Assembly (NCBI GenBank): GCA_017410325.1
Contig: JAFQRA010000031.1
Span: 1-64,000 of the forward strand
Source: Clostridia bacterium
Lineage (GTDB): Bacteria; Bacillota; Clostridia; Oscillospirales; Acutalibacteraceae
Direction of reading: 5' to 3'
DNA length: 64,000 nt
The notes below the pieces were generated by a model that was not told the DNA's origin, did no database searches, and saw only the letters and a program-made list of their open reading frames with translations. This document shows positions 7,677 through 47,701 of this stretch, in pieces. The position numbers and the translations under genes were made by a program. How positions within the stretch are numbered: the first letter of the stretch is position 1; each line of letters begins with the position of its first letter.

Positions 7677-9299
7677 TTATTCAACAGGTTTAACAGAGGA
7701 AAAATAATTTTCTCCGTTCTTGATTGTGAATGTAACGGATGCTTCGCCGAAATCGCCGTTAACGTCGCCATCGGGGCGTTGCATACCGCCGGGCCTTTCG
7801 CCTTCGGGTCTCGGCATATCTTCAAAGCCTTCGGGAGGAGTCATACCTTCGGGCATCTCGGGGCGGGAGAAATCCTCAAAGCCTTCGGGTGGTGTCATAT
7901 TCTCGGGCATATTATAAGGCTTTTCGGGACGTGACATATCTTCAAAGCCTTCGGGTGGAGTCAATGCTTCGGGCATTGAAAAATCTTCGGGCATTTCATA
8001 GTCAGGTCTGAAGCCTGCGTGACCGCCCATACCCTGTGCGCTAACACCCTCAAGCCGGGTATCTTCGCACCATAAGGTGTAGTCGCCCGCAGAAAGGCTC
8101 TCACTTGCAACGATAAGATACGTAAAATCGTTTTGAGGTTCACCTGAGAAAAGAACCTCTTCCTTTTCGTTTCGCAGGGAATATATGTTTTCACCCTTCT
8201 GCTTTTCTGTAAAGGAGAATACAGCGTAGTTGATTTCGCTTTCGGAAATTCTGTCAAGCATATTACCTGTTGCGAACACATAACCGCCGTTGATGTGTAT
8301 GCCCATATCGGAGTCAATACCCGCATCACCACTGAAAGCGCAAGCCTGTGCAACAACGCTGCCGCCGTTTATTACAAGCCAGCCATTGGAGTCAATGCCG
8401 TCACCCTCGCCTGTTTCGCCGTTGACAAGGATATTAAGACTGCCGCCGTTGATTGTTGTAACGGAAACATAGTCCTCGTTTGTGTTGATGCCGTCGTTGC
8501 CGGAAACAATGTTTATATTACCGCCGTTTACAGTCAGGTGAAGCTCGGAATCAAGTCCCTCGTTTTCGGCGTTTATATTGAGTATGCCGTCGCCTTTTGT
8601 GCCGCTGCTAACATTCATCGACACTTTTGAATAGAAAGCGGCGTCGTATTTATGCAGCTTCTTTGCATCCTCTACCTCGGTGCCGTCCTCGTTGAGAACA
8701 ACGCTGTCGGGCTTATATATGCGGGCAACATAGGCGCCGTTCACGGTGTTTTCACTGCCGTCTGCTATAATGACATTTGCACCTGCCTTGCTTGTGTCAA
8801 CATCCTTTGTTGCGGTTTCGGTGTCCGTGTCGCCGCATTCGTAAACGCTGTAGAAAATAACAGCAGGAGCAACCTCACAGGTAATGTCAACACTATTCAG
8901 AACAAGCGTAACAACGGCTTCGGGATTTTCTTCAGCCTCGTCACCAAGGTCAACGGCAATCTGCCCCTTTGACAGTTTACCGCTGAGAACATACTGACCG
9001 GGCTGGGTTATGCGAACAACCGTGTGCGCATCAGCCTCTTCCTTGCTGTGGGCGTCTGCGTCTGTTCCTTCGCCGTAGGTGAAGTCGTGCCCCTCTTCAT
9101 AATAAACAATATCGTTTGCCGTGTATACTGCCTGCGCCGTATCGGCGGATATTTCCGCACCGTCAACGGTAATTTTGCTGTCGGCAAGCACAATCTGTGT
9201 TCCCTCATAGGGTTCCAGTTCAGGCGCTTTTGTTCCGCAGCCCGATAAAACACAAGCTGTGAGGGTGAATACAAGCGTCAGTACGGTTAGTCTTTTCAT
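7677..9299 (-). CDS. Cthe_2159-type beta-helix carbohydrate-binding lipoprotein
   Basis: This 540-residue lipoprotein (signal peptide with lipobox LSGC near residue 20) is related to Clostridium thermocellum Cthe_2159, a Ca2+-dependent polygalacturonate-binding parallel beta-helix. Helix repeats such as GDGILNINAENEGLDSELHL and NGGNINIVSGNDGINTNED occupy about residues 240-340. Residues 435-515 contain three imperfect Pro-Glu-rich repeats of the type MPE-TPPEGFED-SRPE, which look like a flexible linker or wall-spanning region, before a short final strand. The start follows AAGAAGGAAT, which overlaps the stop of the ABC ATPase gene, so the two are translationally coupled. The ligand is inferred, not proven. 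Confidence 0.82.
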   Translation of the reverse strand: MKRLTVLTLVFTLTACVLSGCGTKAPELEPYEGTQIVLADSKITVDGAEISADTAQAVYTANDIVYYEEGHDFTYGEGTDADAHSKEEADAHTVVRITQPGQYVLSGKLSKGQIAVDLGDEAEENPEAVVTLVLNSVDITCEVAPAVIFYSVYECGDTDTETATKDVDTSKAGANVIIADGSENTVNGAYVARIYKPDSVVLNEDGTEVEDAKKLHKYDAAFYSKVSMNVSSGTKGDGILNINAENEGLDSELHLTVNGGNINIVSGNDGINTNEDYVSVTTINGGSLNILVNGETGEGDGIDSNGWLVINGGSVVAQACAFSGDAGIDSDMGIHINGGYVFATGNMLDRISESEINYAVFSFTEKQKGENIYSLRNEKEEVLFSGEPQNDFTYLIVASESLSAGDYTLWCEDTRLEGVSAQGMGGHAGFRPDYEMPEDFSMPEALTPPEGFEDMSRPEKPYNMPENMTPPEGFEDFSRPEMPEGMTPPEGFEDMPRPEGERPGGMQRPDGDVNGDFGEASVTFTIKNGENYFSSVKPVE

Positions 9300-10139: not shown

Positions 10140-10808
10140 ATGAAAAAAAGTATTATTTTTAAAATTTTGTGTGTTGCGCTTTCTGCGCTGACTCTTTGCT
10201 TTGCCTTTGCCGCCTGCGGCGATAAGGATGTTGCAATTATCGGCGGTGCGGACGGCCCGACTAAAATCATCGTCGGCGAAAGCACGGACACCGTAAAGGT
10301 GCGCTTCGATATGGAGTGCGGCGGCAAGGATATAGGCAGCTTCACAATGATGCTTTACCCCGAATACGCACCGATTACGGTTGAAAACTTCGTCGGTCTT
10401 GTTCAGGAGGGCTTCTACGACGGCGTAACCTTCCACCGCATAGCCGAGGGCAGATACGGCCCGTTTGTTGCCCAGGGCGGCGACCCCGACGGTGACGGTA
10501 TCAGCGACCCCGGCCAGGAGAAAATCAAGGGCGAATTTGCCGCAAACGGCGTTGACAATCCGCTTGCCGACAGCCACGTCCGTGGCGTTGTATCAATGGC
10601 AAGAACAAACGATTACAACTCCGCAAGCAGCCAGTTCTTCATCTGCTATAACGATAACTACGGAGCATCTCTCAATGGCCAGTACGCCGCCTTCGGCAGG
10701 GTTATCGAGGGTATGGAGGTTGTCGATTCCTTCCTTGAGGTTGAGCGTGATTACAACGACAAACCGCTGACGGATATTATAATTACAAAGGCTGAAATCG
10801 TTGAATAA
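10140..10808 (+). CDS. Cyclophilin-type peptidyl-prolyl isomerase, lipoprotein
   Basis: This 222-residue extracytoplasmic lipoprotein (lipobox FAAC, Cys26) has a cyclophilin domain from about residue 53. Typical elements are APITVENFVGL, VTFHRI, FVAQGGDP, ASSQFFICY and FGRVIEGMEVVD; they fit a proline isomerase helping exported proteins fold. Directly after the lipid-anchored Cys, residues 32-41 read AIIGGADGPT. The same ten residues occur in the core of the oadB product in this window, where they belong to a conserved membrane motif. What this tag does in a lipoprotein is unknown. The gene is monocistronic with its own promoter and terminator. Confidence 0.92.
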   Translation: MKKSIIFKILCVALSALTLCFAFAACGDKDVAIIGGADGPTKIIVGESTDTVKVRFDMECGGKDIGSFTMMLYPEYAPITVENFVGLVQEGFYDGVTFHRIAEGRYGPFVAQGGDPDGDGISDPGQEKIKGEFAANGVDNPLADSHVRGVVSMARTNDYNSASSQFFICYNDNYGASLNGQYAAFGRVIEGMEVVDSFLEVERDYNDKPLTDIIITKAEIVE

Positions 10809-10814
10809 AAAATG

Positions 10815-10850
10815 CGGCATCTGCAAAGAAAAAGCAGATGCCGTTCTTTT
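10815..10850. terminator. Bidirectional terminator between cyclophilin gene and Rnf-like operon
   Basis: The stem CGGCATCTGC / GCAGATGCCG has a 9-base A-rich loop, TTCTTTT on the right and TTTTTTA-type sequence on the minus strand. It serves both convergent units. Confidence 0.85.
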
Positions 10851-11178
10851 ATTGCTGTGTCGGTGTTTCATCAACAGCCTGTGATATCGCTGCGGTCGTT
10901 TCGGGAATGGGCTGCTTTGAAATCTTGATACAGGTGTCCGTAATCACAAAGGTGACTATAAACACAAATATCAGAAGCAGAATATATGCCGCCGCCGAAT
11001 ACGCCTTGCGGCGAGCCTCCTCTTGCGCAAAACTGAGCGTGTGGGTGGAGGTAGGCGATTCCTCAACGGGGTAGTTTTTGTTGAACGGCAGTATCGCTCT
11101 TCTGTGCTGTTCGGGCTCGGGAATTACGGGTCTGAAATCCTCGGGGAGCTGTTCGTTGGGCGTTTTGTGTTCTTCCAT
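10849..11178 (-). CDS. Small single-helix membrane protein of the Rnf-like operon
   Basis: This 109-residue protein is of unknown family. It has a hydrophilic Pro-Glu-rich N-terminus (MEEHKTPNEQLPEDFRP), one membrane helix (about residues 63-85, AAAYILLLIFVFIVTFVIT) and a short Thr/Pro-rich outer tail. The ATG at 11178 is chosen over an upstream one at 11244 because GAGGTG lies 7 bp before it and the longer form would run far into rnfA. It starts 10 bp after the rnfA stop and is the last gene of the operon. It has no sequence features of RnfB, RnfC or RnfG (no Cys clusters, no flavin motif). Confidence 0.75.
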   Translation of the reverse strand: MEEHKTPNEQLPEDFRPVIPEPEQHRRAILPFNKNYPVEESPTSTHTLSFAQEEARRKAYSAAAYILLLIFVFIVTFVITDTCIKISKQPIPETTAAISQAVDETPTQQ

Positions 11179-11188
11179 AGCTTTCACC

Positions 11189-11776
11189 TCATACAAACAG
11201 CGACGTGCCCGAGAGGCCTGCAAAGCCGAGCGAGATGAGTGCAATATAAATAAACGTCACGGGCTTGCCCTTGAAAAACGGGCTGATGCTGTCGTTATTT
11301 CTCAGTCGGCTTTCGCCCTCGCCTATAAGAACAACGGCAATGATGAACGCAATGCCTGCGCCGATGCCAAGGCCGATTGACTCAATAACGTCAAAGGCGG
11401 CACGGCGGTTAATCATCGGCACGGCAAGCACGAGTGTGTTTACCGCAGCCATACCTATGCGGTGAATATCGCTTGTGTTGCGCTTGAGGCCGAGTTTGAT
11501 TATTGCCGTAAAGCTCAGGTATATTACCGCAAGCACACCGCAGTAAACCGCAAGGTGAAGCGAGGTGCTCAAGGCGTTGATTGCGGGGATTGAATCGAGT
11601 GCGGAGCAGGCCGCCGCGGTTGCGCTTGTGAAAAAGGCAACAAGCAGGGCAATGGGGAAGAAATCCCTGGGCTTTGTGGCAATTCTTATTGCCTCGCTCA
11701 TACCGAAGCCGCCGTTGAAAACAAGGTTCTGCAGCAGCAGGGCAAACATAGAGGCGTTCAAAAATGCGTAAATCAT
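11189..11776 (-). CDS. rnfA: RnfA-like membrane subunit lacking cluster cysteines
   Basis: This 195-residue membrane protein has six helices and matches RnfA/RsxA in length and pattern (N-terminal LLLQNLVFNGGFG, central RNTSDIHRIGMAAVNTLVL). In normal RnfA a Cys in LGLCPFMG and another in TTNCAVLG hold an intramembrane iron-sulfur cluster shared with RnfE. Here the aligned positions are Ser27 and Thr114, so both ligands are missing. The rnfE stop and this start overlap (ATGA), which shows tight coupling. RnfA homology is inferred from pattern and operon order. Loss of the Cys residues suggests it no longer carries electrons, or does so differently. Confidence 0.82.
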   Translation of the reverse strand: MIYAFLNASMFALLLQNLVFNGGFGMSEAIRIATKPRDFFPIALLVAFFTSATAAACSALDSIPAINALSTSLHLAVYCGVLAVIYLSFTAIIKLGLKRNTSDIHRIGMAAVNTLVLAVPMINRRAAFDVIESIGLGIGAGIAFIIAVVLIGEGESRLRNNDSISPFFKGKPVTFIYIALISLGFAGLSGTSLFV

Positions 11777-12840
11777 TCCTTACCCTCCTTGTGCCCGAAA
11801 ACGTCATCCATCGAACGGCTCATAAGCTTTTCAAGCTCATCGTCTGCAACGTCGTCGAAGCCGTAGTGCTTTTCTTCCTTTGCTTCGGGCTCAGCCTCTT
11901 CAACGGTAACATCTTCAATTTTAAGCTCTTCATATTGTGTATGCTCTTCGGGCTCGGGAATTTCCTCGGGTCCGTTTTCTGTTTCGTCTGTCCTGATTTC
12001 TGTTTCGGCAGTCTGACCTGCTTCTTGCTCAGCGGTAACGGATGCTTCTTCGGCAACGGCAGCTTCTTCTGCCTGCGGTTTATCTTCAGCCTGATTTTCG
12101 GCAGGCAATTCGTCAAAGTTTATGTCCGTTTCCTCGGGCGTCAGGTCTGGCAGTATTGCCGCGATGCCGGCTTTTGCCTCCGGCTTTGGCGCGTGAGCTT
12201 TTTTGCCGTGTTTGGGCTTGGGCTGCTTCTTGTCAAGAAATTTCGGCCAGTAGGCGGAAATAAAGCTTCTGAGGGCTGCACCCGCAAAGCCTATCATAAG
12301 AAAGCCGCCAAAGGGGAGAAGAAGACCCGTGAGAGTCCTGCCTTCCCAAAATTTAAAGCCTGCAATTGCACCGCTGCCGATAATTTCGCGTATTGCGCCG
12401 ACAAGCAGAAGCACGGCGGCGTAGCCTGCGGAGGCAGTGACACCGTCTGCAAGGGCGGCAAGCGGCTTGATTCTTACCGCAAAACGCTCGCAACGCAGTA
12501 CAAGCAATGAGTTAACCGCCATTACGGGCAGATAAATGCCGAGTGTGCCGAAAAGCTCAGGGTTTACTTTTTCGATAAGGTACATAATCGGCACAACGAG
12601 TGCACAGCCGATTATGATATAAATACCCGTTCTTACCCAACGGGGAATTACTTTGAGGAAGGCGGAGGCAATAACCTCGCTGACGGTTATTGCAATTGCG
12701 GCAACAACGGCAAGCAGGGCGGCACCCTTGATTGTCGTAGCCATAGCAACAACGGGGCAAAGTCCGACGGCCTGAACAAGCACAGGGTTGAATATACCTG
12801 CGTTACGAAGCAGTAAGCCGGGGTTTTTGCTGTTAGCCAT
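11773..12840 (-). CDS. rnfE: RnfE-like membrane subunit with long acidic tail
   Basis: This 355-residue protein has an N-terminal six-helix domain (about residues 1-205) that is clearly RnfE/RsxE: FNPVLVQAVGLCPVVAM, GIYLPVMAVN, GAIREIIGSG. Cys28 of GLCP is present, but the second cluster Cys (normally in TNCIV) is replaced by Ser111; Cys117 lies six residues away. RnfE usually ends near residue 200-230. Here about 150 extra residues follow, Glu/Ala-rich and with no membrane segment, ending in a short conserved-looking helix (DDELEKLMSRSMDDVFGHK). The tail is probably cytoplasmic. AAAGGAGG precedes the ATG. Confidence 0.85.
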   Translation of the reverse strand: MANSKNPGLLLRNAGIFNPVLVQAVGLCPVVAMATTIKGAALLAVVAAIAITVSEVIASAFLKVIPRWVRTGIYIIIGCALVVPIMYLIEKVNPELFGTLGIYLPVMAVNSLLVLRCERFAVRIKPLAALADGVTASAGYAAVLLLVGAIREIIGSGAIAGFKFWEGRTLTGLLLPFGGFLMIGFAGAALRSFISAYWPKFLDKKQPKPKHGKKAHAPKPEAKAGIAAILPDLTPEETDINFDELPAENQAEDKPQAEEAAVAEEASVTAEQEAGQTAETEIRTDETENGPEEIPEPEEHTQYEELKIEDVTVEEAEPEAKEEKHYGFDDVADDELEKLMSRSMDDVFGHKEGKE

Positions 12841-12876
12841 CGTTAAGCCTCCTTTAAATAAAATTTGAACTGAGAA

Positions 12877-13659
12877 TTAATATCCGAACAACAGTACCCA
12901 GTAATAGGTCTCGCCGTCGTTATAACAGCCTATGGCGGCTGATTTGTAGGTTTCGTTTAAAATGTTGTCCTTGTGTCCCTGGCTGTTCATCCAGGAGTTT
13001 ATAACGGATGCAGGGGCAGTCTGGCCCGAGGCAATGTTTTCGCCGTAAACGTATTCGCTTACCGTAAAGCAGGTTGTACCGTCCGGCCTTGTGTGGGAAA
13101 AGGCTACCGTCAGCTCACGGGCGCGTACATCTGCCGCCTTTGCAAGTTCCTTGGAATATTTCAGGGTGGGCAGGTCTTTTTCGCTGCGCTCGGCGTTTAC
13201 AAGGCGCAGAAGCTCGGTTTCAAAAGCCTTGTCTTCCTCATCCTCAACCGTAAGTATTGTGGTTGTAACCGTCGGGTATTCAATTTCGGGCGGCTCGGTA
13301 ACTACGGGCTTGCGTGTGGTGGGTATCGTGGTTGCCTGGGTTGTGGGCGCTGAAGTGGTGGAAACGGGTTTGGTAGTGGTTGTGCGGCGGGGCCTTGTGG
13401 TTTTCGGTGCGGTTGTGCTTGAGGAAGGCTCGCTGTTTCCGCTTTCGTCAGCGGCAGCAGAGCTGTATTCTTCCGTGAATTCCCAGAAAAACTCTTCGGT
13501 ATAGATCTGAGTTGTTGTGGTTTCTTCACGGATTATGTCGTTGTGCTCAAAGCCGAATATTTCGTCCTTGGTTTTAACCTCGTTTGCAGAACAGCAGGCA
13601 AGCCCCAGACATAAAATAAAAGTAATAACAATTGCGGCAAACGAACGGGATTTACGCAT
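12877..13659 (-). CDS. CAP/SCP-domain lipoprotein inside the Rnf-like operon
   Basis: This 260-residue secreted lipoprotein has a signal peptide with lipobox GLACCS near residue 22. A Thr/Pro/Ser-rich linker of about 70 residues follows (runs of TTTT, TTAPKTTRP), then a C-terminal CAP domain (about 145-260: LLRLVNAERSEKDLPTL, FSHTRPDG, YGENIASG, SWMNSQGHKDNIL). CAP domains of this bacterial type (YkwD-like) are extracellular with unsettled function. Its ATG overlaps the rnfD stop (ATGCGTAA), so it is a true member of the operon and not a chance neighbour. No RnfG-like flavin motif is present. Confidence 0.9.
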   Translation of the reverse strand: MRKSRSFAAIVITFILCLGLACCSANEVKTKDEIFGFEHNDIIREETTTTQIYTEEFFWEFTEEYSSAAADESGNSEPSSSTTAPKTTRPRRTTTTKPVSTTSAPTTQATTIPTTRKPVVTEPPEIEYPTVTTTILTVEDEEDKAFETELLRLVNAERSEKDLPTLKYSKELAKAADVRARELTVAFSHTRPDGTTCFTVSEYVYGENIASGQTAPASVINSWMNSQGHKDNILNETYKSAAIGCYNDGETYYWVLLFGY

Positions 13660-14599
13660 TTTTCGTGCCTCCCTTTTTCTTGGCGAGTGCGTTTACGAGC
13701 TGTCTGTCAACGGCGTTCCAGACGGCGTTGATAATAAGTATACCGAAGCACGCACATTCTTCAAACGCACCGAAACGGCGCATAAGCATACAGACAATAC
13801 CTGCGCTGATGCCGTAAAGCAGACGGCTCAGGGGAAGCTTGGGCTGTGTGCCCTGCTCGGTTAAAAGGAATAGGGCGGCAAAAATCATATAGCCCGCAAC
13901 AAGCTCAAGCACAACCGATGAAAGAAGGCTCGTAACCCTCGGGAAGCACAGCGCCGTTAATGCCGCACCGCCGATGAAGCCTGCAACGCTTATGAAAAGC
14001 TTTGTGCGGCGTATGAGTAAATAGAAGGCACTGCCGAAAAGAACGATGATACAGCCTGCTCCCATAGGGCCGGGGTAATTGCCTGTAAAAATGTCAATTG
14101 CTTTGACAGAGCTTAAGCTGATAGACGTGTTCTGCGAGAGCAGATATGCAAGCGAAGAGCCGCTTGAGCCCGTGAGGGCGGTGTTTGCGGCAATTCGGGG
14201 ATAGTCAAAAATCAGGTCGGAGAAGCATATAGTTAAAAAGGCCATACCTGCCGCGGCCGGCGAAAAGGGCAGAGTTTCGTTTCTGCCGAAGGGGAGCTTT
14301 GCGGCAATTACGGCAAAGCTGCTGCCGACTGCAGGCATCCATACGGGTGCATTTGCGGGCAGCATAAGGGCTAAAATAATGCCTGTCGTAACTGCGCTCA
14401 GGTCGCTGATTGTTGCGTGCTGGCGCAGAAGCTTTCTGCCGAAAAATTCGCACAGCACGGCGGTAATAACGCTCACGGCAATCAGCCGAAGAGCCTTTGC
14501 GCCGTAGAAGTACCACGCACTTACGCACGGAAGCAGGAGAATTGCGAGCATATCAAGCTGTAATGAACGGGTAGTCTTGGTCGAAAATTTTTCCGGCAT
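13652..14599 (-). CDS. rnfD: RnfD-like membrane subunit with altered flavin site
   Basis: This 315-residue membrane protein has about nine helices and the RnfD/NqrB layout: N-terminal TTRSLQLDMLAILLLPC, SDLSAVTTGIILALMLP, and LPFSPAAAGMAFL. In RnfD, FMN is bound to a Thr in a motif close to (S/T)(G/S)ATPLA. The corresponding stretch here reads TGSSGSSLAYL (residues 143-153), so Thr appears replaced by Ser148 and the ATP triplet is absent. GAAAGGAG precedes the ATG. It is the first gene of the operon. The flavin-site alignment is by eye and should be checked. Confidence 0.82.
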   Translation of the reverse strand: MPEKFSTKTTRSLQLDMLAILLLPCVSAWYFYGAKALRLIAVSVITAVLCEFFGRKLLRQHATISDLSAVTTGIILALMLPANAPVWMPAVGSSFAVIAAKLPFGRNETLPFSPAAAGMAFLTICFSDLIFDYPRIAANTALTGSSGSSLAYLLSQNTSISLSSVKAIDIFTGNYPGPMGAGCIIVLFGSAFYLLIRRTKLFISVAGFIGGAALTALCFPRVTSLLSSVVLELVAGYMIFAALFLLTEQGTQPKLPLSRLLYGISAGIVCMLMRRFGAFEECACFGILIINAVWNAVDRQLVNALAKKKGGTKNA

Positions 14600-14699: not shown

Positions 14700-15299
14700 A
14701 TGAAAATAGAATCTCTTACAGACGAAACGATTATAGTTGAACTCTCCGAAGAGGATATGAAAAATCTCAATATCACCTATGAGGAGATGGATTATTCAAA
14801 GGTAGAAACAAAGCGCGTTATCTGGACTATACTCTCCCGTGCCCGAAGAACTCTCGGCAGGGAGCTGGATACCTCGGGCAGGCTTTTCGTTGAAGCAATG
14901 CGCCATGAGGCCGGCGGCTGCGTGCTGTTCTTTTCTGTTGAACAGGACGAAAAAACATCGCGCCGTACAAAACGTTATCTGATAAAAAGAGGGGAATACA
15001 TAACCTGTGAATTTGAAAGCGCACAGACGCTGTGTGACTGCGCAAAAAGAATAAGCTTTACGGGCTATTCGTGCGACAGCAGGCTTTACCGCCTTGAAAA
15101 TAAGTACCGTTTGTTGCTCAGACCTCACTCGGGGGCAGGGCGCATAAGGCTCTGCCTGCCCGAATTCTGTAAGGTCATCGGAGAAAACTCCCTGCTCACC
15201 GAATTCACCGATGAGCATTGGGAGTGTATTGCTGAAGAAAACGCCGTGGAATTACTTAGCCTGGAAAAGAAGCATCATAAAGCCTGCGGCAACTGCTGA
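14700..15299 (+). CDS. MecA-like ClpC adaptor protein
   Basis: This 199-residue cytoplasmic protein resembles MecA/YpbH, adaptors that bring targets to the ClpCP protease. It has the typical N-terminus MKIESLTDETIIVELSEEDM followed by NITYEEMDY, and a separate C-terminal domain with EFESAQTLCDCAKRI and YRLENKYRLLLR, the usual MecA C-terminal pattern. The acidic linker between the two domains is short. TAAGGATATG gives the start. Its last 48 bp overlap the 3' end of oadB on the other strand, which is unusual. Confidence 0.75.
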   Translation: MKIESLTDETIIVELSEEDMKNLNITYEEMDYSKVETKRVIWTILSRARRTLGRELDTSGRLFVEAMRHEAGGCVLFFSVEQDEKTSRRTKRYLIKRGEYITCEFESAQTLCDCAKRISFTGYSCDSRLYRLENKYRLLLRPHSGAGRIRLCLPEFCKVIGENSLLTEFTDEHWECIAEENAVELLSLEKKHHKACGNC

Positions 15300-16430
15300 G
15301 CCGATAACGCCTGCAACGTTGGGGCCCATAGCGTGCATAAGCAGGAAGTTCGTCGGGTTTGCCTTTTTGCCTTCAACCTGAGCAACGCGGGCCGCCATGG
15401 GAACGGCGGAAACGCCTGCCGCACCGATAAGGGGATTGACCTTGCCCTTGGTGATGATATACATCAGCTTGCCAAGGAGAACACCGCCTGCGGTGGAGAA
15501 GGAGAACGCAAGCAGACCGATACCGATAATCATGAGCGTATCAAGTTTTAAGAACTGCTCGCCGTTTGCGGTTGCACCGACCGTTACGCCCAGAAGAATG
15601 GTAACGATGTTGCAAAGTGCGTTCTGTGCAACGTCGCTGAGTCTTTCAACAACGCCGCTTACTCGGAACAGGTTGCCGAGCATAAGCATACCGATAAGGG
15701 GAGCAACGCTCGGAAGAATAAGAACGCAGAGAACGGTAACGATAATCGGGAAAATAACGAGCTCTGTTCTGCTGACCTTACGCAGCTGACCCATCTTGAC
15801 CTCGCGCTCTTTCTTGGTTGTGAGCGCACGCATAATGGGTGGCTGGATAAGCGGAATGAGAGCCATATAGGAATATGCCGCAACCGAAATGGGGGCAAGC
15901 AGATGGTCTGCCAGCTTGGAAGCGGTAAGGATTGCCGTGGGGCCGTCTGCACCGCCGATGATGGCGATTGCGGCGGCTTCTGCAGGCTCAAAGCCGAGCA
16001 GAATGGCAAGAATAAACGCAATGTAAATACCGAGCTGTGCAGCTGCACCGAGCAGAAGGCTCGAAGGGTTGGCAAGCAGGGGAGCAAAGTCCGTCATTGC
16101 GCCGACACCCATAAAGATAAGGCAGGGGAAAATACTGCTCTTGACACCGGCGTATATAAGCCTTAAAACGCCCGTGTCGTACCAATGTGCACCCTCAACG
16201 ATGTTGGAGGTGTCCATAAGTCCCGTCGGGTCTGCCATAAGACCTGCCGCAGGGAGGTTAGCAAGCAGCATACCGAAGGCGATGGGCAGAAGCAGCATCG
16301 GCTCGTACTTCTTGACGATTGCCATAAACAGAAGCACGAACGAAACAAGGAGCATAACGCCCTGCTGCCACGTCATAACCGCAAGACCGGAGCTTTCCCA
16401 GATGCCCTGTAAAACACCTAAAAAGTCCAT
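15252..16430 (-). CDS. oadB: Na+-translocating decarboxylase beta subunit (OadB)
   Basis: This 392-residue membrane subunit couples decarboxylation of the carboxybiotin carrier to Na+ export. It has about 10-11 membrane segments and the hallmark motif AIIGGADGPTAIL near residue 155, which includes the Asp used for Na+ binding. GNLFRVSGVVERLSD and GAAGVSAVPMAARV are also typical. GGAGGC precedes the ATG. It is the last gene of oadA-oadG-oadC-oadB. The alpha subunit points to oxaloacetate as substrate. Its 3' end overlaps the convergent mecA-like gene. Confidence 0.95.
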   Translation of the reverse strand: MDFLGVLQGIWESSGLAVMTWQQGVMLLVSFVLLFMAIVKKYEPMLLLPIAFGMLLANLPAAGLMADPTGLMDTSNIVEGAHWYDTGVLRLIYAGVKSSIFPCLIFMGVGAMTDFAPLLANPSSLLLGAAAQLGIYIAFILAILLGFEPAEAAAIAIIGGADGPTAILTASKLADHLLAPISVAAYSYMALIPLIQPPIMRALTTKKEREVKMGQLRKVSRTELVIFPIIVTVLCVLILPSVAPLIGMLMLGNLFRVSGVVERLSDVAQNALCNIVTILLGVTVGATANGEQFLKLDTLMIIGIGLLAFSFSTAGGVLLGKLMYIITKGKVNPLIGAAGVSAVPMAARVAQVEGKKANPTNFLLMHAMGPNVAGVIGSAVAAGFMMLLFQAK

Positions 16431-16448
16431 AGAACCGTATGCCTCCGA

Positions 16449-16877
16449 TTAATATACTGCAAGAACGTCGTCTGTGTTGACAACCGTGCCGTTTGAAACG
16501 AGAATCTGCTTGACTGTGCCGTCAAACTCTGCGGTGATTTCGTTTTCCATCTTCATAGCCTCAAGGATGAAGAGAACGTCGCCTGCCTTGACAGCCTGAC
16601 CCTGGCTTACGAGTACCTTGAGAATTGTGCCGGGCATGGGGCTGATGCACTTCTGACCGTCTGCGCTGGGGGCGGCAACGGGAGCGGGAGCAGCTTCCTC
16701 AGCGGGAGCGGCTGCGGGAGCAGGAGCTGCAACGGGGGCTGCAACGGGAGCCGGAGCGGCAACAGCAACGGGAGCGGGAGCGGCACCTTGAGCTGTTGTT
16801 ACGTTTGTGATAACTGCATCGGTCTCGTTGACCTCTACCTCATAGTTCTTACCGTTAAGTGTTACGATGTATTTCAT
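16449..16877 (-). CDS. Biotin carboxyl carrier protein of the decarboxylase
   Basis: This 142-residue carrier has a short N-terminal strand region ([16 protein letters not shown]), an Ala/Pro-rich flexible arm (about residues 33-75) and a C-terminal biotinyl domain. The biotin attachment site is Lys109 in EAMKMEN. It moves CO2 from the alpha carboxyltransferase to the membrane beta subunit. In some decarboxylases this domain is fused to alpha; here it is separate, as in the glutaconyl-CoA and methylmalonyl-CoA enzymes. It lies 18 bp upstream of oadB. Confidence 0.95.
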
Positions 16878-16910
16878 TGTTTTTTACCTGTACCTTTCTC
16901 TAAATATTAA

Positions 16911-17495
16911 TTATTCTTCAATAAGCTTTATTGATTTGAAATCGAGCCTTTCGAGCGGAATACCCGTCCGGTGGCTGACAAGTGCCATAATAACTGCGGC
17001 TGTGGGTTCGTCTATACCGTTCCACTCAAGCGCTCTGATTGATTTGAAATCGAGCTTTTCAAGCGGAATACCCGTCTGATAACTGAGCGTTGCCATTACG
17101 ACTGCGGCTGTCGGCTCATCTACGCCGATGAGCTGCAGCGGCTGGTCGAGCAGCTTTATTGATTTGAAATCGAGGTGTTCGAGCGGCTTGCCGATACCGT
17201 GGCTGAGCGAAGCCATAACTGCGGCGGCCGTAGCCTCATCAACTCCGTAAAGCTCAACACGGCTCTGTCCGGAAGCGGACGGAGAAGAAGCGGCCTTTTT
17301 CACAACGCCGTTTCCGCCGATTTCGGCAACGGACTGTGCGCCGTCTTCTTCGCCTTTGTTTGTGAGCGTGCGGATTATACGGGAGAGCAGATATACGAGC
17401 ACTGCAAGCAGTGCAAGCTCTGCCATAACGACAAGAATGCCGACACCGGAAACGAGTAACGCATCAGTCAGACCAAGTGCTTTTCCTGCTAACAT
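16911..17495 (-). CDS. Decarboxylase gamma subunit (OadG-like) with three internal repeats
   Basis: This 194-residue protein has one N-terminal membrane helix (ALLVSGVGILVVMAELALLAV, shortened here) in the OadG manner; OadG assembles the alpha and beta subunits. The C-terminal 115 residues are three tandem repeats of about 36 residues with the pattern GVDEPTAAVVMA-LS--TG-PLE-LDFKSIK. Each repeat looks like a two-helix unit. Classical OadG is under 100 residues and has no such repeats, so this is an extended variant, possibly holding the biotin domain or alpha. AAGGAG in the oadA stop region provides the ribosome binding site. Confidence 0.82.
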   Translation of the reverse strand: MLAGKALGLTDALLVSGVGILVVMAELALLAVLVYLLSRIIRTLTNKGEEDGAQSVAEIGGNGVVKKAASSPSASGQSRVELYGVDEATAAAVMASLSHGIGKPLEHLDFKSIKLLDQPLQLIGVDEPTAAVVMATLSYQTGIPLEKLDFKSIRALEWNGIDEPTAAVIMALVSHRTGIPLERLDFKSIKLIEE

Positions 17496-17502
17496 TGACT
17501 GA

Positions 17503-18894
17503 TCACTCCTTGATTTCCTTTATTGCATATTTGAACGTGTTCTTTTCTCTCTCTTTTCTTGCCTCAAAGAAGGCCTGTGCCTGCTGGGGGAAGGCGATAT
17601 AGGAAAGAACGTCCTCGTCACAGCGTGCGTCCTTGCCGAGTTCTTCCTTAGCGGCCTCAAAGCCGGGCTCAAGAGTGTCTGCAAAGCGGCCTGTGAAGGG
17701 CTTCTCGTCGCCGAGAACGAGCTTCTGAAGCTCCTTGCTTACCTTGCCGGGTGCCTTGCCGTATTCGCCCTTGATATATGCCTTTACTTCCTTGGAGATG
17801 TTCTTGTATCTCTCGCCCAGAAGAACGTTGAACGTTGCCTGAACGCCGACCATCTGACTCATGGGAGTAACGAGGGGCGGATAACCGAGGTCCTCACGCA
17901 CTCTGGGCGTTTCGGCAAGAACTTCGTCGAGCTTGTCGAGCTTGCCCTGTGCGGTGAGCTGAGCAACAAGGTTGGAAAGCATACCGCCGGGAATCTGATA
18001 GTCGAGAGCGTCTGTTTCCGTTGCCATAACAACGGGGTTGAGAACGCCTTCTTCAAGGTACTTTGCGCGAAGCGGCTTGAAGTAGCCGTTGATTTTTGAA
18101 AGAACCTTCGGGTCAAGGTCAACCTTGTAGCCCTGATTCTTAAGTGCGTAAACGAGTGTTTCCGTCGGGGGCTGGCTTGTACCGCCGGAAAGGCTGGAAA
18201 TGGCGGTGTCGATAATGTCTGCGCCTGCCTCAACAGCCTTCTGCAGCGTAATCATGCCCAGGCCCGTTGTGGAGTGTGTGTGAACGACAACGGGGAGCTT
18301 GACTGCGCTCTTGAGTGCCTTGACAAGGTCGTAAGCCTCCTGCGGAGCGAGAATACCTGCCATATCCTTGATGCAGATGGTCTGTACGCCCATCTTCTCA
18401 AAGCCCTCTGCAACCTTTACGTAGCTTTCGATGTTGTGAATGGGGCTTGTGGTGTAGCAGATTGTACCCGAAGCTATAGCGCCGCTTTTGAGAGTCTGGT
18501 CAACCGCTACCTCAACGTTGCGAAGGTCGTTGAGCGCATCGAAAATACGGATTACGTCAATGCCGTTTTCAACGCTCTTGGAAACGAACTTGCGAACTAC
18601 GTCGTCGGGGTAGTGCTTGTAGCCGAGAAGGTTCTGGCCTCTGAGAAGCATCTGGAGCTTGGTGTTGGGACAAGCCTCTTTGATTGTGCGGAGTCTGACC
18701 CACGGGTCTTCGTTGAGATAACGAAGGCAGGAGTCGAAGGTTGCGCCGCCCCAGCACTCAAGCGAGTAGTAGCCCGCTTTGTCGAGCTCGCCGAGGATAC
18801 CCTTGAAATCTTCAATGGGCATTCTTGTGGCGATAAGAGACTGGTTGGCATCGCGCAGAACGGTTTCTGTGAATTGTACTGTCTTCTTTGCCAT
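17503..18894 (-). CDS. oadA: Oxaloacetate decarboxylase alpha (carboxyltransferase) subunit
   Basis: This 463-residue cytoplasmic carboxyltransferase transfers the carboxyl group of oxaloacetate to biotin. It shows the metal and substrate motifs of the pyruvate-carboxylase/OadA fold: TVLRDANQSL near residue 12, ECWGGATFD, MLLRGQN, the Lys of TICIKDMAG, and the metal ligands in HTHSTTG. The C-terminal conserved PYC_OADA region follows (PGGMLSNLV, YPPLVTPMSQMVG). It lacks a fused biotin domain, which is supplied by the carrier gene. GAAAGGAA precedes the ATG. It is the first gene of the operon. Confidence 0.95.
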   Translation of the reverse strand: MAKKTVQFTETVLRDANQSLIATRMPIEDFKGILGELDKAGYYSLECWGGATFDSCLRYLNEDPWVRLRTIKEACPNTKLQMLLRGQNLLGYKHYPDDVVRKFVSKSVENGIDVIRIFDALNDLRNVEVAVDQTLKSGAIASGTICYTTSPIHNIESYVKVAEGFEKMGVQTICIKDMAGILAPQEAYDLVKALKSAVKLPVVVHTHSTTGLGMITLQKAVEAGADIIDTAISSLSGGTSQPPTETLVYALKNQGYKVDLDPKVLSKINGYFKPLRAKYLEEGVLNPVVMATETDALDYQIPGGMLSNLVAQLTAQGKLDKLDEVLAETPRVREDLGYPPLVTPMSQMVGVQATFNVLLGERYKNISKEVKAYIKGEYGKAPGKVSKELQKLVLGDEKPFTGRFADTLEPGFEAAKEELGKDARCDEDVLSYIAFPQQAQAFFEARKEREKNTFKYAIKEIKE

Positions 18895-47452: not shown

Positions 47453-47568
<116 letters not shown>

Positions 47569-47575
47569 ACCCTTA

Positions 47576-47691
<116 letters not shown>

Positions 47692-47701
47692 ACAATAAGG
47701 T

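Follow-up and report, generated by a model that had tools for sequence, protein, structure and literature searches.

The window analysed here is a stretch of 64,000 nucleotides from a Clostridia bacterium of the family Acutalibacteraceae (contig JAFQRA010000031.1 of assembly GCA_017410325.1). It carries a short operon whose products are related to membrane subunits of the Rnf complex, with five genes tightly packed on the minus strand, running from 14599 to 10849 in the order D', CAP, E', A' and S (primes mark the subunits of this module, as distinct from those of ordinary Rnf). We present evidence that the module is very probably a redox-inert, conserved paralogue of Rnf. The genes of the operon and its divergent neighbour are listed below, with expectation (E) values for the best-matching families and chains.

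13652..14599, minus strand: RnfD', 315 amino acids, RnfD/NqrB homologue (PF03116, E 7.8e-58; 7zc6_D, E 1.3e-34)
12877..13659, minus strand: CAP/SCP-domain protein, 260 amino acids (PF00188, E 5.2e-21), with a hydrophobic N-terminal segment
11773..12840, minus strand: RnfE', 355 amino acids (PF02508, E 1.3e-33; 7zc6_E, E 3.7e-19), with a long acidic C-terminal tail
11189..11776, minus strand: RnfA', 195 amino acids (PF02508, E 1.3e-18; C. tetanomorphum Rnf chain, E 7.1e-8)
10849..11178, minus strand: small single-pass membrane protein S, 109 amino acids (likely start 11178; longest open reading frame from 11244)
14700..15299, plus strand: mecA-like adaptor gene (PF05389, E 2.6e-17), divergent from the operon

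Composition of the operon

Adjacent frames overlap or are separated by no more than 36 bases, and a Shine-Dalgarno-like stretch lies 5' of each of the five starts, which suggests that they form a single operon. RnfD', RnfE' and RnfA' are clear homologues of the Rnf/Nqr membrane subunits, and their closest solved relatives are the Rnf chains of C. tetanomorphum (7zc6). All three score under the NCBIfam cut-offs for Rnf subunits (128.9 versus 207 bits for D', 100.5 versus 213 for E' and 39.6 versus 229 for A'). A Pfam family scan of the operon found no RnfB, RnfG or RnfC-like subunit (C'), and neither NqrC nor NqrF is present in it. The initial annotation had described just this composition, namely the D, E and A membrane subunits with two non-Rnf proteins and no rnfB, rnfC or rnfG, and the Pfam families confirm it. 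The CAP protein is probably secreted or membrane-anchored, judging from its hydrophobic N-terminal segment, and S has no Pfam family match.

A single clade of module loci

A profile scan of one-genome-per-species contigs returned 44 loci, of which 43 are of the module type (one, L093, being a cut-off D' only) and one, L096, is ordinary Rnf. Regions of further genomes were added and 12 duplicates removed, giving a module set of 83 distinct loci; the profiles were made from ligand-poor proteins, so the search favours ligand-poor relatives. All 83 loci belong to a single order, under four family labels (f1, f5, f23 and f24). The named holders include Oscillospiraceae, Ruminococcaceae, Ruminococcus, Clostridia, Clostridiales, Eubacteriales and Bacillota bacteria, together with Candidatus Limimonas (Acutalibacteraceae), Fimenecus and Caccousia. 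The comparators were 12 Rnf, 2 Nqr and 3 D-G-E-A clusters, all four cluster cysteines being readable in these 17; an extra E. coli row without the start of A keeps its three readable cysteines. In a tree built with the ligand columns removed, in which some rows were flagged for long branches and odd composition, 79 module loci form one clade (support 100/100) apart from the Rnf, Nqr and D-G-E-A types.

Loss of cofactor ligands

The residues named in the initial annotation are exact. The positions that would hold the cysteine ligands of the intramembrane [2Fe-2S] cluster are Ser27 and Thr114 in A' and Cys28 and Ser111 in E', so that one of four cysteines is left in the window, and the flavin motif of D' reads GSSLA. 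It had also proposed to test whether such losses are conserved in homologous operons, and they are: the four cysteines are kept in none of the 79 module loci having both A' and E', versus 17 of the 17 comparators. Two cysteines survive in a single locus, one in 44 and none in 34. By position, none of 80 A' has RnfA Cys25 and 14 of 80 have RnfA Cys113, RnfE Cys25/26 survives in 34 of 81 E' and RnfE Cys108/109 in 0 of 81, and the former Cys25 position of A' is serine in 58 of 80. RnfA Cys25 and RnfE Cys109 are thus missing clade-wide, and the remaining two cysteines require seven and eight changes on the tree. On these alignments, the ligand loss is beyond chance and is shared by the clade.

Covalent flavin mononucleotide (FMN) is likely to have been lost from D' as well. 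In the window, Ser149 occupies the column of the FMN-bearing threonine; over 82 D' proteins that column, where the alignment is unsure, reads serine in 60, threonine in 10, glycine in 9, alanine in 2 and asparagine in 1 (non-threonine in 72 of 82). ApbE has been reported to modify serine too, with a motif D-x-x-[ST]-G-A-[ST] (PMC12052999). The strict motif occurs in none of the 79 D' rows scanned, and the ordinary RnfD of the window genome (ITTTATPLA) also fails it. Because ApbE can act on serine and TALTGSS in the window fits this motif in part, the loss of FMN is not proven by Ser149 alone.

The electron-transfer partners are missing along with the ligands. No credible RnfB or RnfG was found near the module in 83 loci, the only candidate being one 29-bit ferredoxin-like match in L138, far from the operon. 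The conclusion of the initial annotation that normal electron transfer between ferredoxin and nicotinamide adenine dinucleotide is gone is therefore well supported by the sequences, with no B or G and with the cluster ligand set lost clade-wide. Its further suggestion of an outside electron partner is unlikely to hold for the window version, and may apply to relatives whose C' keeps two [4Fe-4S] motifs.

An ordinary Rnf in the same genome

A separate contig of the window genome carries complete rnfC, D, G, E, A and B in a row, with apbE past two small genes, and this ordinary Rnf has all four cluster cysteines and the RnfD threonine. The initial annotation had considered that a complete rnfBCG locus might pair with the subunits of the operon. 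Such a locus does exist, but the D, E and A subunits encoded there are its own and carry every ligand; the window operon is thus a paralogue and not the only Rnf of the cell. The genome contains only two PF03116 genes and one full-length RnfB match.

RnfB was also surveyed in 28 genomes picked among holders of the module, and 26 of them gave long matches with E values no higher than 4.3e-60 (3 with one internal stop reported). The match in G388 is short (residues 4-90, 45% identity), and that in G183 spans 52 residues only, with no full-length RnfB. G183 is 99% complete in two contigs, and its sole PF03116 gene is the module's own D'. This genome holds the module without ordinary Rnf, which argues that the module can persist without Rnf and that pairing with it is not needed there.

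The module genes are under selection, as judged from ratios of nonsynonymous to synonymous substitution (dN/dS) between the window and four congeners (in the two more distant of these pairs, dS exceeds 1 for the module genes). The ratios are 0.09-0.14 for D', 0.11-0.20 for E', 0.03-0.12 for A' and 0.12-0.32 for CAP, with 0.11-0.13 for S (three pairs, the fourth being saturated); ordinary Rnf genes in the same pairs gave 0.01-0.27. Furthermore, all 10 congeners have A', with identities of 68-97%, and the D'-E'-A' gene order is conserved across loci of the four family labels. At the level of sequence, these comparisons establish paralogy, a single clade, ligand loss, the absence of B and G, and constraint.

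Neighbours of the module

The typical locus reads rpe, (mecA), [C'], D', E', A', [DUF4015 protein], with brackets marking genes that are not always present. The rpe gene was found in 71 of the 82 loci with enough flank, in all 71 upstream of D' and on the same strand. The mecA-like gene is present in 48 of 82 loci with enough upstream sequence, on the strand opposite D' in all 47 besides the window. The gene at 14700..15299 is the sole MecA gene found in the window genome; it is a conserved neighbour of the module, and we claim no subunit role for it.

Surface proteins are the more variable part of the neighbourhood. Among the 74 loci with enough downstream sequence, a DUF4015 protein is encoded in 43 and S in 10 (L083 by a weak match), leaving 21 with neither; a DUF4015 profile then matched two of these, L156 strongly and L087 over a short stretch. 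The DUF4015 proteins are single-pass by appearance. In 18 aligned members, the Ser-Tyr-Tyr, Phe and Pro of a SYYxFxKxYP-type motif before the membrane helix are invariant; the motif was not found in a second group of these proteins. The predicted DUF4015 domain is glycosidase-like, its top structure match being the hypothetical protein Cthe_0052 (4s1a, E 6.2e-13), followed by PgaB C-terminal domains and then GH191.

S carries a similar form of this cytoplasmic motif, and an hhalign comparison with the N-termini of DUF4015 proteins gave probabilities of 97.7% for the first group and 68.2% for the second. S is thus likely to be the counterpart of the cytoplasmic part and membrane anchor of the DUF4015 protein, without its glycosidase-like domain. 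DUF4015 has no match in the window genome, and the window genus shows neither C' nor a DUF4015 domain, having instead the anchor-like S and the CAP protein. The CAP gene was detected (phmmer with the window protein) in 11 of 83 module loci, namely the window, nine congeners and L075 only. Given the match of S to the DUF4015 anchor, the window genus appears to have lost the enzyme domain while keeping the anchor, and to have acquired CAP at a site between D' and E'.

The tip of the acidic tail of RnfE' bears a short conserved motif, roughly LExLMxRSxxDx, in the window genus and L046, which suggests a docking peptide.

Residues of the proposed sodium route

Published models differ as to whether sodium moves through RnfA/E or through RnfD, with Rnf and Nqr being described as redox pumps. 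For A. woodii Rnf, the A/E pair has been proposed to carry sodium by an alternating-access mechanism centred on the cluster, along a route that includes RnfE Arg67, Asn107 and Glu115 and RnfA Asn112 (PMC11889175). The RnfE side of this route is mostly kept in the module (Arg67 in 74, Asn107 in 70 and Glu115 in 62 of 81), as is RnfA Asn112 (79 of 80); the window equivalents are E' Arg70, Asn110 and Glu118 and A' Asn113. Median retention is 0.62 over the 26 RnfE positions at which all 17 comparators agree; Arg67 stands at 0.91 and the second cysteine at 0.00. The predicted model of A' has the RnfA fold, with transmembrane helices 1 and 4 broken at residues 22-25 and 112-113.

Interpretation

At the cell envelope, the stripped core probably has another role, one that is not electrical. 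We propose that the rnf operon was duplicated in Clostridia of the Oscillospirales type and that one copy would have lost rnfB, rnfG, the [2Fe-2S] ligand set and probably the FMN on RnfD. Purifying selection would then have retained it as a complex in its own right, either C'D'E'A' or D'E'A'. The operon in the window would represent a derived form, which has neither C' nor the extracytoplasmic DUF4015 domain and which the CAP protein has joined. The A'E' pair may still shape an hourglass-like path in which the redox switch is replaced by fixed residues, mostly hydroxyl-bearing (Ser or Thr). With such residues instead of a redox switch, A'E' would act as a redox-independent cation conduit or a gradient-driven transporter, most likely for sodium, with D' as its membrane partner. 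A single-pass protein whose cytoplasmic motif is conserved, either the DUF4015 protein or the remnant S, would tie A'E' to surface glycan or wall proteins. Reuse of a redox-inert Rnf core as an envelope-associated ion conduit or transporter is the reading that we tentatively favour, as plausible but a little short of probable. The repurposed transporter or channel put forward in the initial annotation is plausible in the same sense.

Several observations weigh against transport of this kind. The RnfA side of the sodium route is lost, with Glu88, Gln85 and Thr111 each kept in 0 of 80 and Thr110 in 5 of 80; this is softened by the divergence of A' throughout (median retention 0.20 over 34 comparator-invariant positions) and, for Thr111, by its inconstancy among the comparators. 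In A. woodii, RnfA Thr111 to Gly is reported to have no phenotype at normal sodium, and Glu115 to Ala is tolerated without loss of growth (PMC11889175), the latter detracting from the retention of Glu115 in the module. RnfD Glu185 and Asn90, proposed for a sodium half-channel in RnfD (PMC9588780), have no equivalent in any of 82 D' (one gap at Glu185), the window having Ala and Met, respectively; all 8 comparators have Glu185, and 5 of the 8 have Asn90. At the Asp248 position, 70 of 82 D' carry an acidic residue, Asp or Glu (Glu in the window), so a riboflavin site in D' is possible. Finally, 19 of 74 loci have no DUF4015 protein or anchor even after the profile search, and a surface partner is thus not universal.

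If the module is indeed a third branch of the Rnf/Nqr superfamily, a redox sodium pump would have turned into a transporter or channel for cations that is gradient-driven, free of cofactors and linked to surface glycan or wall proteins; we regard this fuller version as possible and on the doubtful side. A lineage without the cofactor ligands but with the core retained, the RnfE-side route mostly kept and the RnfD half-channel residues lost, provides a natural experiment on the sodium path. It would also follow that Rnf-annotated genes in these bacteria are not to be counted as energy-conserving Rnf unless ligands and partners are checked.

An unlikely reading, if still a serious contender, is that D'E'A' moves nothing and serves as a platform that places or regulates a surface protein (DUF4015 or CAP) and a cytoplasmic partner held on the RnfE' tail. 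The five invariant residues of the SYYxFxKxYP-type motif and its similar form in S would fit such a scaffold, as would the conservation of the RnfE' tail tip within the genus and the loss of RnfA Glu88 and RnfD Glu185. However, a scaffold has no obvious need for three transporter-type subunits with buried Asn, Arg and Glu retained, both surface candidates are missing in the 19 loci just mentioned, and the second DUF4015 group has no such motif.

It is improbable that the module is a residual redox device. In this reading, loci that have C' would still pass electrons on the cytoplasmic side through the two [4Fe-4S] clusters of C' and perhaps a riboflavin in D', either for sensing or to reduce some membrane acceptor. 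C' was detected in 16 of the 82 loci with enough upstream sequence, and two CxxCxxCxxxC motifs are kept in all 16; the acidic residue at the Asp248 position and the reported action of ApbE on serine point the same way. On the other hand, the exact N-x-x-E-C-E-P-Y motif is missing from 16 of 16 C' (L049 reads NAIEDEPY), A'E' does not have the full cluster ligand set, and C' went undetected in 66 of 82 loci, the window included.

A solute channel formed by D' alone, as a reversion to the fold of ammonium and urea transporters with A'E' as an accessory, seems very doubtful. RnfD/NqrB has been described as kin of ammonium and urea transporters (PMC12174285), and the redox residues of D' are mostly gone while several Gly, Pro and Arg are retained; the identified neighbours, however, show no link to nitrogen use. 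Decay of a duplicate without function, which the lost ligands and missing subunits might bring to mind, is next to impossible given dN/dS of 0.03-0.20 for D', E' and A', intact frames in the window, A' in all 10 congeners and a gene order conserved over four family labels.

Relation to known systems

No description of the module was found in the literature searched, most subscription journals and bioRxiv being outside the reach of the search. Ordinary Rnf (C. tetanomorphum 7zc6, A. woodii 9eri) shares homologous D', E' and A' (and C' where present), the relative order C-D-E-A, the predicted A' fold and most of the route residues RnfE Arg67, Asn107 and Glu115 and RnfA Asn112. The module differs in having no B or G, in the loss of the cluster cysteines and, mostly, of the FMN threonine, in a C' without N-x-x-E-C-E-P-Y, and in its other extracytoplasmic neighbours.

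The nearest precedent is Na+-NQR, which has also been explained as a duplicated rnf operon minus rnfB (PMC4014512), the same kind of origin as that proposed for the module. However, the two NQR comparators, in which NqrC and NqrF are present, keep all cluster cysteines; the module lies on a branch separate from theirs, and Rnf models outscore Nqr models on its proteins. Partial NQR/RNF-like systems with RnfD fused to an NAD-binding domain have been reported within flavinylation clusters (PMC8238504). These resemble the module in their partial use of RnfD-type domains, but D' has PF03116 alone, with no PF00175 fusion. The D-G-E-A clusters (L208, L209 and L211) are likewise reduced second Rnf-like clusters with no B or C detected, but all three keep RnfG, the four cysteines and the ATP motif in D, and they form their own clade.

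In another family of the class (f57, genus g228), four genomes have an RnfC-RnfD-like pair (L203-L206) whose D member is their sole PF03116 gene; near these pairs, E, A, G and B all went undetected.

Other features of the window

A sodium-pumping decarboxylase operon (OadB, biotin carrier, OadG-like protein and OadA) adjoins the module at 15252-18894. OadB is next to the module in 7 congener loci as well; one more locus, L133, has it at another position. The OadG-like protein (16911-17495) has three repeats of about 30 residues (GVDEPTAAVVMATLS...LEKLDFKSI) past its membrane helix. On the other side of the module, a cyclophilin with a signal-like N-terminus (10140-10808) contains an IIGGADGPT stretch in common with the neighbouring OadB (weak OAD_beta match, E 0.0053).

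Farther away, a tandem pair of 5S ribosomal RNA (rRNA) genes lies 6 bases apart at 47453-47692, with no other rRNA reported in the window. At 7677-9299, beside an ABC-type ATPase, lies the gene of a carbohydrate-binding protein of the Cthe_2159 type, whose C-terminal part is repetitive and rich in Pro, Glu and Met.

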